Below are positions 1,878 to 20,210 of a stretch of DNA of 64,000 nucleotides, one piece after another. The DNA is from Pullulanibacillus sp. KACC 23026 (GTDB lineage: Bacteria; Bacillota; Bacilli; Bacillales; Sporolactobacillaceae), in contig NZ_CP119107.1 of assembly GCF_029094525.1 (NCBI RefSeq), forward strand, positions 248,001 to 312,000, written 5' to 3'. Made by a program: the position numbers and the translations under genes. Each line of letters begins with the position of its first letter. The stretch's first letter is position 1. The notes beneath the pieces are model-generated. The model searched no databases. It was given only the letters and a program-made list of their open reading frames with translations, and was not told the origin of the DNA.

Positions 1878-3107
1878 TTAAGCTTGAGCAAATCGCTTAA
1901 GAATTTCAATGATGACTTGAGTAGATTTTTCCATGTTATCAACCGAGGCATATTCGAACTTGCCATGGAAATTCTCTCCGCCAGTAAAAAGATTTGGGGT
2001 TGGCAGTCCCATATAGGAGATTTGTGACCCGTCTGTTCCTCCGCGAATCGGCTCAATTTTCGGCACAATTCCAAGTGACTTCATGGCGTCGCTCGCAATA
2101 TCAACGATCTCCATAACAGGTTCAATCTTCTCACGCATATTGTAGTACTGATCATTCAGTTCAAGGGTGACCGCATCCTGACCGTATTTTTCTTGGAACC
2201 CGGCAACTAATGATTGGATGAAAGCCTTCCTTCCTTCGAAGGAGTCACGATCGAAATCACGGATAATATAATAGAGCTTTGTTTGTTCAACATCTCCGTT
2301 AAATGAAAGGAGATGGTAGAAGCCTTCATACCCGTCTGTATATTCAGGGGCTTCGTCTTTAGGAAGCTGTTCATGGAAAGCCATAGCGATTTTGCTTGAA
2401 TGAATCATTTTTCCTTTAGCTGTACCGGGATGCACATTGGTTCCATTAAAGGTTAATTTGGCAGCAGCGGCATTAAAGCTTTCATATTGAAGCTCACCTA
2501 GTGGACCGCCGTCAACGGTATAGGCATAAGTGGCATCAAAGGCTTTGACATCAAAACGGTGAGGTCCGCGGCCAATCTCTTCATCTGGTGTAAAGGCGAC
2601 ACGCACTCGGCCATGTTTAATTTCTGGATGGTTCATCAAATAATTCATGGCCGTCATAATCTCAGCAATCCCTGCTTTGTTATCAGCCCCAAGCAGTGTT
2701 TGGCCATCTGTTGTGATGAGTGTATGTCCGACATATTGGGAAAGTTCTGGAAAATCCTGCGGCGACAGAACAATTTGAAGGGCTTCATTTAAAACGATGT
2801 CGTTGCCATCATAGGCTTCGACGACTTTTGGCTTTACACCTTTACCAGTAAAATCGGTTGCCGTGTCTAGGTGTGCCATGAAACCAATTGTTGGAACATC
2901 GTGATCGACATTGGACGGCAATGTGGCCATGACGTAAGCATTCTCATCAACCGTCACATCCTCCATTCCGATTCGCTTAAGTTCGTCCACTAGATGACGG
3001 GCAAGATCCCATTGGCCAGGTGTGGAAGGACAGGTTTCACTTTCTTCGTTAGATTGCGTATCGATCTTTGCGTATGTAGTGAGCCGTTCAATAAGCTCCG
3101 TTTTCAT
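1878..3107 (-). CDS. pepT: Peptidase T (tripeptide aminopeptidase)
   Basis: A cytosolic M20-family zinc aminopeptidase that releases the N-terminal residue of tripeptides. Family landmarks visible are [11 protein letters not shown] (metal-binding His and catalytic Asp), [10 protein letters not shown] (bridging Asp), TPDEEIGRG (general-base Glu pair) and VDGGPLGEL. The length (about 409 aa) is typical. The frame opens at a GTG at 3116, but the ribosome-binding sequence AAAGGGAG touches that codon. The ATG at 3107 sits 8 bases behind it and gives the usual start MKTELIERL. It is a single-gene unit ending in the terminator shared with speD. Confidence 0.95.
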
Positions 3108-3202
3108 TATGGTCACTCCCTTTGTCCCATGATCAAATTAACAGATTAATTATATCATGTTTCAAGGAGACCAGTTGGATTCAAATGAGTGGCGATAAAT
3201 AG

Positions 3203-3255
3203 AAAAAGTCGATCCAAGCAGATCATTATTTAGACCTGCTGAACCGACCTTTTTT
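3203..3255 (-). terminator. Terminator of cotD
   Basis: Read leftward, AGCAGGTC/GATCTGCT and an outer GGTCG/CGAC pair form a long stem just after the cotD stop, ending in a T run. Confidence 0.6.
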
Positions 3256-3270
3256 ATATTCATATTAGGA

Positions 3271-3468
3271 CTAGCAGCATTTGGTAGGATAGCCGGGATC
3301 ATTGACCACATTTTGATAAACAGGACGATAAATGTGTTGTGGAACATTAACAATGTTTTGTCTAGTAACAATGACTACAGGGTGAATATAAGGAACGACC
3401 CGTGGGACATAACAATCCCTTACGACATATTGTGGCGGACACTCTATTGGTCGGCATTGTTCGTTCAT
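3271..3468 (-). CDS. cotD: CotD-like inner spore coat protein
   Basis: A 65-residue protein, rich in Cys, Pro, His, Tyr and Val, with the CotD-family layout: an N-terminal CRPIECPP, a central VVPYIHPVV, an NVPQHIYRPVYQNV stretch and a C-terminal Cys pair. In Bacillus, CotD is a minor inner-coat protein made in the mother cell. The start is the ATG at 3468, with GGAGGTGA 7 bases upstream; the in-frame TTG just before it is too close. This is direct evidence for a spore former. The family call rests on composition and motif order, not a long match. Confidence 0.75.
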   Translation of the reverse strand: MNEQCRPIECPPQYVVRDCYVPRVVPYIHPVVIVTRQNIVNVPQHIYRPVYQNVVNDPGYPTKCC

Positions 3469-6159: not shown

Positions 6160-6240
6160 TAGCTTTTTGAAAGTGAGTCCAAATATAGTAGTGAGACTTA
6201 GGAGGAAAAGCTCGGGTACCGTGAACCTAGGGCTATTTTA

Positions 6241-6452
6241 GTAGTTAGACGTAACGAGGATACGCTGTCGGCCGCGCAATGGGCCATCCGGGCAAATAGG
6301 TGTAACGAGAATACGTTATTACTAAAAAACGAGTTAAAATGACCAGAATCAGAGGGAATAGCGTAATGACGTTACCACTAATCTTGAAATCAGCCTCAAA
6401 ACTGGCAAATAAGGAATCGTCGTTACACAAAAACTAAATAGACGTAACGTTG
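6241..6452. repeat. Diverged copies of the 81-bp repeat family
   Basis: Contains GACGTAACGAGGATACGCT, CGCGCAATGGGCCA, TGTAACGAGAATACG, AATAAGGAATCGTCGTTAC and GACGTAACG, all recognisable pieces of the unit tandemly repeated at 8030-9450, here shortened and shuffled. Short frames across it have no ribosome-binding site. Otherwise the 6160-6663 gap holds only the terminator at 6467-6515. Confidence 0.7.
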
Positions 6453-6466
6453 TGCCCTAAATAGAT

Positions 6467-6515
6467 AAAAAACCGACCGCTCTCATTTGATCAGAAATGA
6501 AAGCAGGCGGTTTTT
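6467..6515 (-). terminator. Long hairpin terminator
   Basis: AAAAACCG...CATTT pairs with AAATG...CGGTTTTT in a roughly 20-bp stem with three mismatches, T-rich on both ends. It is 150 bases beyond the HAD gene stop and could end its transcript or one from the repeat region. Confidence 0.6.
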
Positions 6516-7734: not shown

Positions 7735-7914
7735 TTGGATGCCAACCGTGCAAGAGAGATTCTTGAAGCCAATTATATGATTCAAGTAAACTTGGCAGGA
7801 ATTCCTGTGTTTATTCAAAAAGTGAATGAGGATGGTCTAACTGCACAAGTATTTCCACTGGATGAGCCTGACCATGAACAGGTCGTGACACTCAACCAAT
7901 TAGAAGAAGGCTAA
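7735..7914 (+). CDS. sspH: Small acid-soluble spore protein, H-type
   Basis: A 59-residue protein starting at TTG 7735, with AAGGAGG (7721-7727) 7 bases upstream. The sequence begins MDANRAREILEA and continues with IPVFIQKVNEDG, AQVFPLDEP and a C-terminal VTLNQLEEG, the arrangement of SspH-family minor SASPs. These are forespore-made proteins of uncertain role packed in the spore core. The sigma-G-like promoter upstream agrees. A single-gene unit immediately before the 81-bp repeat array. It is short enough to be missed by ordinary gene finders. Confidence 0.85.
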   Translation: MDANRAREILEANYMIQVNLAGIPVFIQKVNEDGLTAQVFPLDEPDHEQVVTLNQLEEG

Positions 7915-8029
7915 TAGATGAGTTAGGCGGGCACCAAAACTAACTCTATTCGCCTCATCGGATGGCCTGCTTCTATGTAGGAAGCCGTTTAAGCCAATAA
8001 GGAATGCTCGTTACACAAAGGCCGATTAG

Positions 8030-9450
8030 ACGTAACGTGGCTACGCTAACCTCCTGCAACTGGGCCGGAATGCCGAAATAAGGGAATGAGGTTACGCCTA
8101 TTTCGGATGAGTGTAACGAGAATACGCTATCCTCCTCGGATCGGGCAGACGTGCCGAAATAAGGGAATGAGGTTACACCTATTTGGGTTGAGGGTAACAA
8201 GGATACGCTATCCTCCTCGGATCGGGCAGACGTGCCGAAATAAGGGACTGACGTTACGCCTATTTTGATTGAGCGTAACGAGGATACGCTATCTGCCGCG
8301 AAATGGGCCAGAATGCCGAAATAAGGGACTGACGTTACGCCTAATTCGATTGAGCGTAACGAGGCTACGCTATCTGCCGCGAAATGGGCCAGAATGCCGA
8401 AATAAAGGACTGAGGTTACGCCTATTTTGGATGAGCGTAACGAGAATACGCTAACGTCCGCGAAATGGGCCGGAATGCCGAAATAAGGGACTGACGTTAC
8501 GCCTAATTCGGTTGAGGGTAACGAGGCTACGCTAACGTCCGCGAAACTGGGTGAAATGCCGAAATAAGAGAATGAGGTTACGCCTATTTCGATTGAGCGT
8601 AACGAGAATACGCTATCCGCCGCGAATCGGGCCGGAATGCCGAAATAAGGGAATGACGTTACGCCTATTTTGGATGAGTGTAATGAGAATACGCTATCCT
8701 CCTCGGATCGGGCAGACGTGCCGAAATAAGGGAATGAGGTTACACCTATTTGGGTTGAGGGTAACGAGGATACGCTATCCTCCTCGGATTGGGCAGACGT
8801 GCCGAAATAAGGGACTGACGTTACGCCTATTTTGATTGAGCGTAACGAGGATACGCTATCCTCCGCTAAACTGGGCCGAAATGCCGAAATAAAGGACTGA
8901 GGTTACGCCTAATTCGGTTGAGTGTAACGAGAATACGCTATCCGCCGCGAAATGGGCCAGAATGCCGAAATAAAGGACTGAGGTTACGCCTATTTTGGAT
9001 GAGCGTAACGAGAATACGCTAACGTCCGCGAAATGGGCCAGAATGCCGAAATAAAGGACTGAGGTTACGCCTATTTGGGTTGAGGGTAACGAGGATACGC
9101 TATCCACCGCGAAATGGGCCAAAATGCCGAAATAAAGGACTGAGGTTACGCCTAATTCGATTGAGAGTAACGAGGCTACGCTATCGTCCGCTAAACTGGG
9201 TGAAATGCCGAAATAAAGGACTGAGGTTACGCCTATTTCGGTTGAGCGTAACAAGGATACGCTAACCTCCGCTAAACGGGCAGGAATGCCGAAATAAGGG
9301 ACTGAGGTTACGCCTAATTCGATTGAGCGTAACGAGAATCCGCTATCTGCCGCGAAATGGGCCAGAATGCCGGAGTAAAGGACAGAGAATACGCTATCTG
9401 CCGCGAAATGGGCGACCTGAGTCATTAAGCGTAACGAGAATCCGCTAAAA
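8030..9450. repeat. Tandem array, about 17 units of 81 bp
   Basis: GTAAC-type anchors recur at 8032, 8113, 8194, 8275, 8356, 8437, 8518, 8599, 8680, 8761, 8842, 8924, 9005, 9086, 9167, 9248 and 9329. The period is 81 bp, with a single 82-bp step at 8842-8924, and a rearranged tail follows to 9450. Each unit carries GTTACGC...GCGTAAC (7-bp arms, about 14 apart) and AGCGTA...TACGCT. Some units also have CCGAAATA...TATTTCGG. Because 81 is divisible by three, long frames run through both strands, but they lack ribosome-binding sites and disagree with one another. I regard the array as non-coding. Confidence 0.95.
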
Positions 9451-9596: not shown

Positions 9597-9815
9597 TTAT
9601 TCGTCTTCTTTAGAGTTTAGATACTCAGTTGGATGTTCAGGTGTTAGATATTCATTTGGAGAAGCGGATTCATCATGCGGGTTATGATTTTTAAACTGTG
9701 CTTTTCTTCCGTTGCGATATTCTCCGCCTTCTTGTTTGGTCAGGCTTTGCCCATTATTATCACTTCCAGGCAAGTTGTGACTCGTTTTTTCTCTGCGCTG
9801 ATCCTTTTTGCCCAT
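9597..9815 (-). CDS. Small hydrophilic protein of unknown function
   Basis: A 72-residue, very polar protein rich in Asn, Glu, Lys, Pro, Gly and Asp, with no hydrophobic core, so probably largely unfolded. The start ATG is supported by AAAGGAGGT 7 bases upstream, and its own terminator follows, so I consider it real. The composition resembles small spore-associated proteins of Bacilli, and sspH is nearby, but no family motif is recognised; that link is speculation. Confidence 0.6.
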   Translation of the reverse strand: MGKKDQRREKTSHNLPGSDNNGQSLTKQEGGEYRNGRKAQFKNHNPHDESASPNEYLTPEHPTEYLNSKEDE

Positions 9816-13187: not shown

Positions 13188-13241
13188 AAAAAACCAGGCC
13201 TTTAGCGGACTAGATGTGATGTCCTTTAAGGCCTGGTTTTT
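13188..13241 (+). terminator. Terminator of the exporter operon
   Basis: AAAAAACCAGGCCTT pairs with AAGGCCTGGTTTTT, with a GGAC/GTCC inner pairing in the long loop and a T run. Confidence 0.85.
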
Positions 13242-13250
13242 ATCTACACT

Positions 13251-13400
13251 CGCCCCCATTTTGGAGGCGGCAAGTCTCTATTTTTGTGTGCAAACGGCTG
13301 TTGCCCACCAAATTTAAGGCGGTGTTCCCCATTTTGGTGGGAATCCCGCACTTACCCACCAAATTTGCAGCGACTGCCTCTATTTTCGTGTGCAACTAGC
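13251..13400. repeat. Short imperfect repeats of a CCCACCAAATTT family
   Basis: CTCTATTTT-n-GTGTGCAA occurs twice (about 13276 and 13378), CCCACCAAATTT twice (about 13304 and 13356) and CCCCATTTTGG twice (about 13254 and 13327). TTTGGTGGG at 13333 pairs with CCCACCAAA at 13356, a perfect 9-bp hairpin. No gene lies here. Confidence 0.65.
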
Positions 13401-19675: not shown

Positions 19676-20210
19676 AAAGTTGGGATGCGCAATCCGAGAA
19701 GGTTGGTGAAAAATCCAAGAAGGTGGGGCAAAATCTAAGAAGGTCGAAGAAAAATCCTAGAAGGTCAATCAAAAATCCAAGAAGCTTGCCCCAAAATGCC
19801 AGAAGGTTAAACGAGCGCCCCCTCGATAGGAGGAAAATCCAAGAAGGTGGGCGCAAAATCCAAGAAGGTCGAAGAAAAATCCGAGAAGGTCAATCAAAAA
19901 TCCAAGAAGCTTGCTCAAAAATGCCAGAAGGTCACATTTGCGCCCCTCGATAGGAGGAAAATCCAAGAAGGTGGGCGCAAAATCTAAGAAGGTCGAAGAA
20001 AAATCCGAGAAGGTCAATCAAAAATCCAAGAAGCTTGTCCAAAAATGCCAGAAGGTCACATTTGCGCCCCCTCGATAGGAGGAAAATCCAAGAAGGTGGG
20101 CGCAAAATCTAAGAAGGTCGAAGAAAAATCCGAGAAGGTCAATCAAAAATCCAAGAAGCTTGCCCAAAAATGCCAGAAGGTCAAATGCGCCGCCAACAAT
20201 AGGAGGAAAC
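19676..20210. repeat. Tandem array with about 124-bp period, some 4 copies
   Basis: AGGAGGAAAATCCAAG-type anchors recur at 19828, 19952, 20077 and 20201 (steps 124, 125, 124). Within each unit AATCCAAGAAGGT-like blocks recur about every 20-27 bases, and most copies contain a CACATTTGCGCCCC-CTCGATAGG stretch. Short frames on both strands (poly-Leu/Phe leftward, Arg/Pro/Asn rightward) are by-products of the composition. No ribosome-binding site is placed to use them. Confidence 0.9.

Follow-up and report, generated by a model that had tools for sequence, protein, structure and literature searches.

The 81-bp tandem array located in the window, i.e. the whole 64,000-nucleotide stretch analysed here (positions 248,001-312,000 of a single-contig 4.80-Mb genome), is probably a copy of a dispersed non-coding minisatellite that is partly borne by IS91-type elements, and the data can be explained without any function for the host; it looks like selfish repeat DNA spread by transposons, and not like a regulatory RNA or a binding site.

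TRF finds 16.8 copies of an 81-bp unit at 8031-9394 (plus strand, score 1684), and by unit spacing these are 16 full units and a partial one; all steps are 81 bp except for a single 82-bp unit at 8800-8881. This agrees with a sequence-only reading of the same DNA, which described about 17 units of 81 bp with one 82-bp step, lying between sspH and a small gene. Indeed, sspH (7735..7914, plus strand; TIGR02861, E = 8.8e-18) is situated upstream of the array and co-oriented with it, downstream lies a minus-strand ORF of 72 aa (9597-9815), and the block-wise variation of the sequence noted there is real. The inverted repeats GTTACGC..GCGTAAC and AGCGTA..TACGCT, which the same reading placed in each unit, are present, but in the exact form they occur in only 8/16 and 7/16 window units, respectively; a further pair said to be found in some units, CCGAAATA..TATTTCGG, is exact in 2/16. 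The G+C content is 50% in the array vs. 43% in the window.

At the left side of the array stands an edge (leader) unit, AAGGAATGCTCGTTACACAAAGGCCGATTAGACGTAACG.. (7998..8048, plus strand), which, according to the left-edge alignment of the arrays, recurs at array edges of other loci, including the IS91-borne ones. It is followed by a degenerate right edge ending with TTAAGCGTAACGAGAATCCGCTAA (9395..9448, plus strand; the corresponding TRF row is 9322-9447), which in the right-edge listing resembles the right edges of other arrays. At 6228..6470 on the plus strand, an nhmmer match at 6228 and the sequence itself reveal another copy of this motif family, short and decayed (CGTAACGAGGATACGCT.., ..CGTTACAC..GACGTAACG). 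The window also harbours a second tandem array at 19691-20209 with periods of 21/42/125 bp (AAAATCCAAGAAGGTC...), beginning just past an apparent intrinsic terminator (GCGCCGCAAGACTGCGGCGCTTTTT), and a short degenerate repeat at 13240-13395 (CCCACCAAATTT.. / CCCCATTTTGGTGG..), situated directly 3' of a terminator-like hairpin; the latter is a further type of intergenic repeat, different from the 81-bp unit.

The family is dispersed over the host chromosome. A two-unit query yielded 236 matches in the host genome, and the pattern TTACGCCTANTTNNGNTGAG, with one mismatch allowed, was observed in 341 places vs. none for the reversed control. All 31 further host stretches examined contain arrays, of 2-20 units each; in total, there are at least 32 intergenic arrays of the 81/82-bp unit, and a degenerate array of the 81-bp family lies near 977 kb. 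Among 340 units extracted from the host arrays, 188 are 81 bp long, 151 are 82 bp long, and one is 83 bp long, and a 40-bp core (GTTACGCCTATTT..TTGAGCGTAACGAG.ATACGCTA) is far less variable than the rest of the unit. An edge unit, CGTTACAC-N7-GATTAGRCGTAACG (also CGTTACAC-N7-GATTAGGCGTAACG), is common to the window array and the IS91-borne arrays; the edge unit of the window also matches, less exactly, arrays without IS91 ends (L047, L054, L058, L073, L076), and it is present in only a part of the array copies. The trailing TTAGGCGTAACGAG is likewise common to IS91-borne and other arrays. In addition, several arrays are accompanied by another repeat about 39 bp in length, TGAAACGCGGGGACGGATCTCTCGTTTCACTGAAGCCTT or a similar sequence (the right flanks of L050 and L053, and the minus strand of L088, 1624-1891).

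Twelve arrays (L055, L056, L057, L059-L063, L065, L067, L070, L072) are situated inside non-coding elements with sharp boundaries. The order is the left end (..TTTAGGAAATTATAAAATTCTCGACTTGTGGATA..), a hairpin (CCTCGCTTTGCGCG..CGCGCAAAGCGAGG), the array, starting about 110 bp from the left end, and the right end (..GGGAGTCGCGGCGTTAGCGATTTTGTTC, finishing in ..GTTAGCGATTTTGTTC). In most copies, the identity of the ends is 97-99%. Every right end has the sequence ..TTTTGTTC, or one close to it, followed by variable flanks, and, as judged by eye, terminal inverted repeats are absent. Members of the IS91 family have no terminal inverted repeats, and their right end lies beside a constant tetranucleotide. 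In one relative (G024, locus L078), matching left and right ends, 1,578 bp apart, surround a broken transposase gene with the Zn_Tnp_IS91 and Y2_Tnp domains (NF033538, 209.9 bits with the cut-off of 125), and the transposase match in another relative (G007) is 79% identical. Thus, by their sequence, the 12 bounded elements bear the features expected of non-autonomous IS91-family elements. No match to Y2_Tnp or IS91 transposase was found in the host genome, hence the IS91-type copies there are orphans. In a thirteenth array (L051) the right end is present and the left end is truncated at a terminator, as one-ended transposition would give; both one-ended transposition and mobilisation in trans have been documented for IS801/IS91 (PMC3189936).

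In the relatives, the insertions are nearly always localized just behind intrinsic terminators. Of the 29 left ends found there, 25 have such a terminator within the preceding 70 nt, with a usual distance of 9-16 nt from the terminator stem, vs. 14% of random 70-mers from the left-end loci of the relatives taken as a control. In the host, 11 of the 12 bounded elements are situated behind a co-oriented upstream gene. All 12 are oriented along the replichore, vs. 11/20 other arrays, the replichores being inferred from the gene-direction switch between 2.3 and 2.6 Mb rather than from a mapped origin; this bias fits insertion after the terminators of co-oriented genes. A polar chromosome motif, which was the first impression, was rejected, as the replichore bias is carried by the IS91-borne copies. 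To our knowledge, based on a brief literature search, insertion just after terminators has not been described for the IS91 family. The best conserved part of the left ends in the relatives (L078-L101, L205-L222) includes TGTGGATAA, which is a DnaA box in reverse complement, exactly in 18/29 and with at most one mismatch in 26/29 cases.

For the window array itself, HMMs of both IS91 ends find nothing significant around the array; in this array and about 19 others, neither the left nor the right IS91 end can be detected. By this test, the window array is classified as a member of the repeat family and not as an IS91-type element, and its own mode of spread we infer as follows. An IS91 transposase, now absent from the genome, would have transferred copies of whole arrays to new sites beside terminators, by the rolling-circle mode and by one-ended transposition; recombination of the RecA or slippage type could later have altered the copy number and shuffled the variants, while older copies, such as the one in the window, may have lost, or never possessed, recognisable ends. 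We moderately favour the view that the window copy is an older insertion that lost its ends, rather than that the family moved otherwise and was later captured by an IS91-type element. Against the IS91 origin count the arrays without IS91 ends, of which 9 of 20 oppose the inferred replichore, the absence of a Y2 transposase from the host genome, and the right end not being found in the array-bearing loci of the relatives. Moreover, as the edge unit is common to both classes of arrays, the array may predate the IS91 capture.

The latter consideration leads to an alternative, possible but rather improbable in our opinion, in which the repeat is a self-mobile BOX-like element consisting of an edge, a number of 81-bp units, and a trailing edge, one of which was captured by an IS91 derivative that spread 13 copies. 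It would explain why the edge unit is found both in the IS91-borne arrays and in the others (the window, L047, L054, L058, L073, L076), why TTAGGCGTAACGAG trails both, and why some arrays without IS91 ends lie away from terminators in either orientation. However, these arrays revealed no target duplication, no mobilising enzyme, and no fixed outer boundary, and in tandem arrays the edges diverge in any case and get copied together with the arrays. A further, much less probable explanation is an array of the REPIN/BIME kind, mobilised by a RAYT (Y1 HUH) transposase. The units are palindromic and clustered, and the host encodes a REP-associated tyrosine transposase (L188; NF047646, 84.8 bits vs. 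the cut-off of 80), a second candidate just under the same cut-off (L189, 77.2), and a third Y1 protein; but no unit is found within about 1-3 kb of any of the three Y1 genes, and the unit is 81 bp long, compared to palindromes of 20-40 nt. It is noteworthy in itself that the host, a member of the Bacillales, has genes resembling REP-associated tyrosine transposases (L188, L189, and L224).

The readings that assign a function to the unit are likewise very improbable. The sequence-only reading had suggested that a transcript could fold in alternative ways, as the arms of the inverted repeats share bases, and overlapping inverted repeats do occur in about half of the window units. The sharing of bases holds, whereas the alternative folding does not: in the 340 units, the observed pairing was close to that expected under column independence for helix 5-21 (314 vs. 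311.3) and helix 23-33 (239 vs. 236.1), and it was 149 vs. 163.4 for helix 64-15, i.e. none of the three proposed helices exhibits covariation. Two-unit folds gave z-scores of -1.0 and -0.9 as RNA (for either strand) and -0.8 as DNA, hence they are not better than shuffles, and Rfam contains no family above the cut-off for the array. As neither covariation nor a folding excess is seen, a structured RNA is unsupported, and a structured or switching transcript, such as a small RNA array, seems hardly credible. An array of protein-binding sites (nucleoid, replication, or regulatory), in which the palindromic core would be a putative site repeated for avidity, is doubtful, if less so. It could account for the much lower variability of the 40-bp core over the 340 units and for the conservation of both arms. 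However, in close unit pairs, reflecting recent differences, the palindrome arms have 31 differences in 14 columns vs. about 89 in 38 other non-polymorphic columns; since the arms change per column as often as the others, their conservation is no sign of special selection. The species-private distribution also speaks against this possibility, and the sites of the bounded copies are accounted for by terminator targeting. A protein-coding repeat was rejected: units of 81 bp (188) and 82 bp (151) are intermixed, which rules out a conserved reading frame; the sequence-only reading had named a place within an expressed protein gene of related strains as a refutation. In the ORFs opened by the 27-codon period, nothing was found by Pfam above the cut-off, and the weak matches below it were to PetL and phospholipase.

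The arrays evolve as a minisatellite undergoing concerted evolution, with lower divergence within arrays than between them, block duplications, and recombined variants. Units differ by 14% within arrays and by 20% between arrays. The variable columns occur in all combinations between the units (four-gamete shuffling), thus short tracts are exchanged between units. In L075, units 11-15 are an exact repeat of units 1-5, and in the window array, units 1-2 recur as units 8-9 with 2% divergence. In elements whose flanks diverge by about 3%, the array units diverge by about 18%, hence the arrays either turn over much faster than the flanks or exchange sequence between loci. Of the three roles initially considered for the array (a protein-binding array, a nucleoid or replication site, a recombination-expanded neutral repeat), the recombination-expanded repeat fits best, given the shuffled variants, the block duplications, and the divergence of 14% vs. 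20%. Recombination thus stands, whereas a merely local neutral repeat does not, as the family is dispersed and partly transposon-borne.

The unit was also sought beyond the host and was found in no other genome searched. In 57 relatives there was no significant match, only short chance-level ones, and among 248 other genomes of the order three contained weak matches. At the weak matches in G029 and G192 the tandem array is absent, and G069 has only the short motif GAAATAAGGAACTGAGG in common with the unit. The exact core pattern had no match in GTDB contigs (with the host genome excluded), and the unit was not found in the plasmids or phages searched. No Rfam or Pfam family scored above the cut-off, in line with the initial remark that no named element was known to match. 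Thus, the repeat family seems to be private to the host genome within the available sampling, with no congener included. As there was no congener among the genomes compared, no empty site is available for the elements; the neighbouring kinase gene, used to look for such a site, had best full-length matches of 31-36% identity. Separately, G069, which belongs to another family, carries a small intergenic cluster of GGAAATAAGGAACTGAGGGTCCG (L190, L191), and the pattern GAAATAAGGNACTGAGG occurs, among 397 genomes, only in G069 and in the host; this cluster is possibly a distant relative of the unit.

Tandem arrays are also found behind the left ends in the relatives, 66-126 bp past the end in 5/29 cases (G033 twice, G021, G003, and G014). 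Their units of 52, 40/82, 92, 51, and 40 bp are unrelated, and a search of these loci for the right end, at the tolerance applied, gave no match. No such arrays occur elsewhere in 99 kb of the left-end loci of the relatives, with 0.33 expected from all background sequence. The P-value of 2e-5 for the association of left ends with arrays is, however, too optimistic, as it was the first batch (4/12) that drew attention to the association, and the second one gave only 1/17. A sixth case is the host locus L088 (at about 2.93 Mb; minus strand, 2114-3271), where a 52-bp palindromic unit starts 434 bp past the left end; the array comprises about 14 copies with the perfect palindrome GGCGTTCATC-GAGGG-GATGAACGCC and is followed by an apparent coding sequence, without a right end. 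It is a tentative idea, which we consider unlikely on balance, that in this bacterial order minisatellites, each genome having its own unit, tend to arise or to be carried directly behind the terminus of IS91-type rolling-circle transposons. If so, they would be a bacterial counterpart to satellite genesis by Helitrons/HINEs, and terminator-adjacent intergenic DNA would be a nursery of tandem arrays.

If the preferred explanation, a dispersed minisatellite partly borne by IS91-type elements, is right, at least some of the intergenic tandem arrays of these bacteria that still lack an explanation originate as the cargo of non-autonomous rolling-circle elements, for which transcription terminators serve as landing sites. 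It would also supply a simple bacterial model for asking whether rolling-circle transposition itself makes arrays, an open question for Helitrons, and cautions against taking such arrays for small RNAs or protein-binding sites.

The host elements resemble IS91/ISCR and their miniature derivatives, e.g. the IS801 fragments of Pseudomonas syringae (PMC3189936), in the Y2 HUH transposase of the autonomous relative, in the lack of visible terminal inverted repeats, in the right end finishing in GTTC, and in one-ended copies and mobilisation in trans; unlike them, they carry a minisatellite, insert just after intrinsic terminators, and reside in a host without the transposase. REP/BIME/REPIN systems with RAYT are similar in having palindromic clustered intergenic repeats and HUH enzymes in the genome, but the RAYT genes of the host are not flanked by the unit, and the unit size is different. 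Pneumococcal BOX elements (PMC3049150) consist of an edge module, variable tandem modules, and an edge module, a layout resembled by those host copies that have the edge unit, and share the dispersed intergenic localization and the varying number of modules; however, stable stem-loops are predicted for BOX elements, whereas the 81-bp unit has no structural covariation, and they have no link to IS91 ends. Non-autonomous Helentrons (DINE-1/HINE, PMC4067079) are likewise rolling-circle elements with a preference for T-rich targets, and their tandem repeats make up to about half of the element, but they are eukaryotic, use a Rep-helicase enzyme, and their repeats are unrelated in sequence. Thus, the host repeat works like repeat-bearing Helentrons and has a BOX-like layout of modules, while belonging to neither group.
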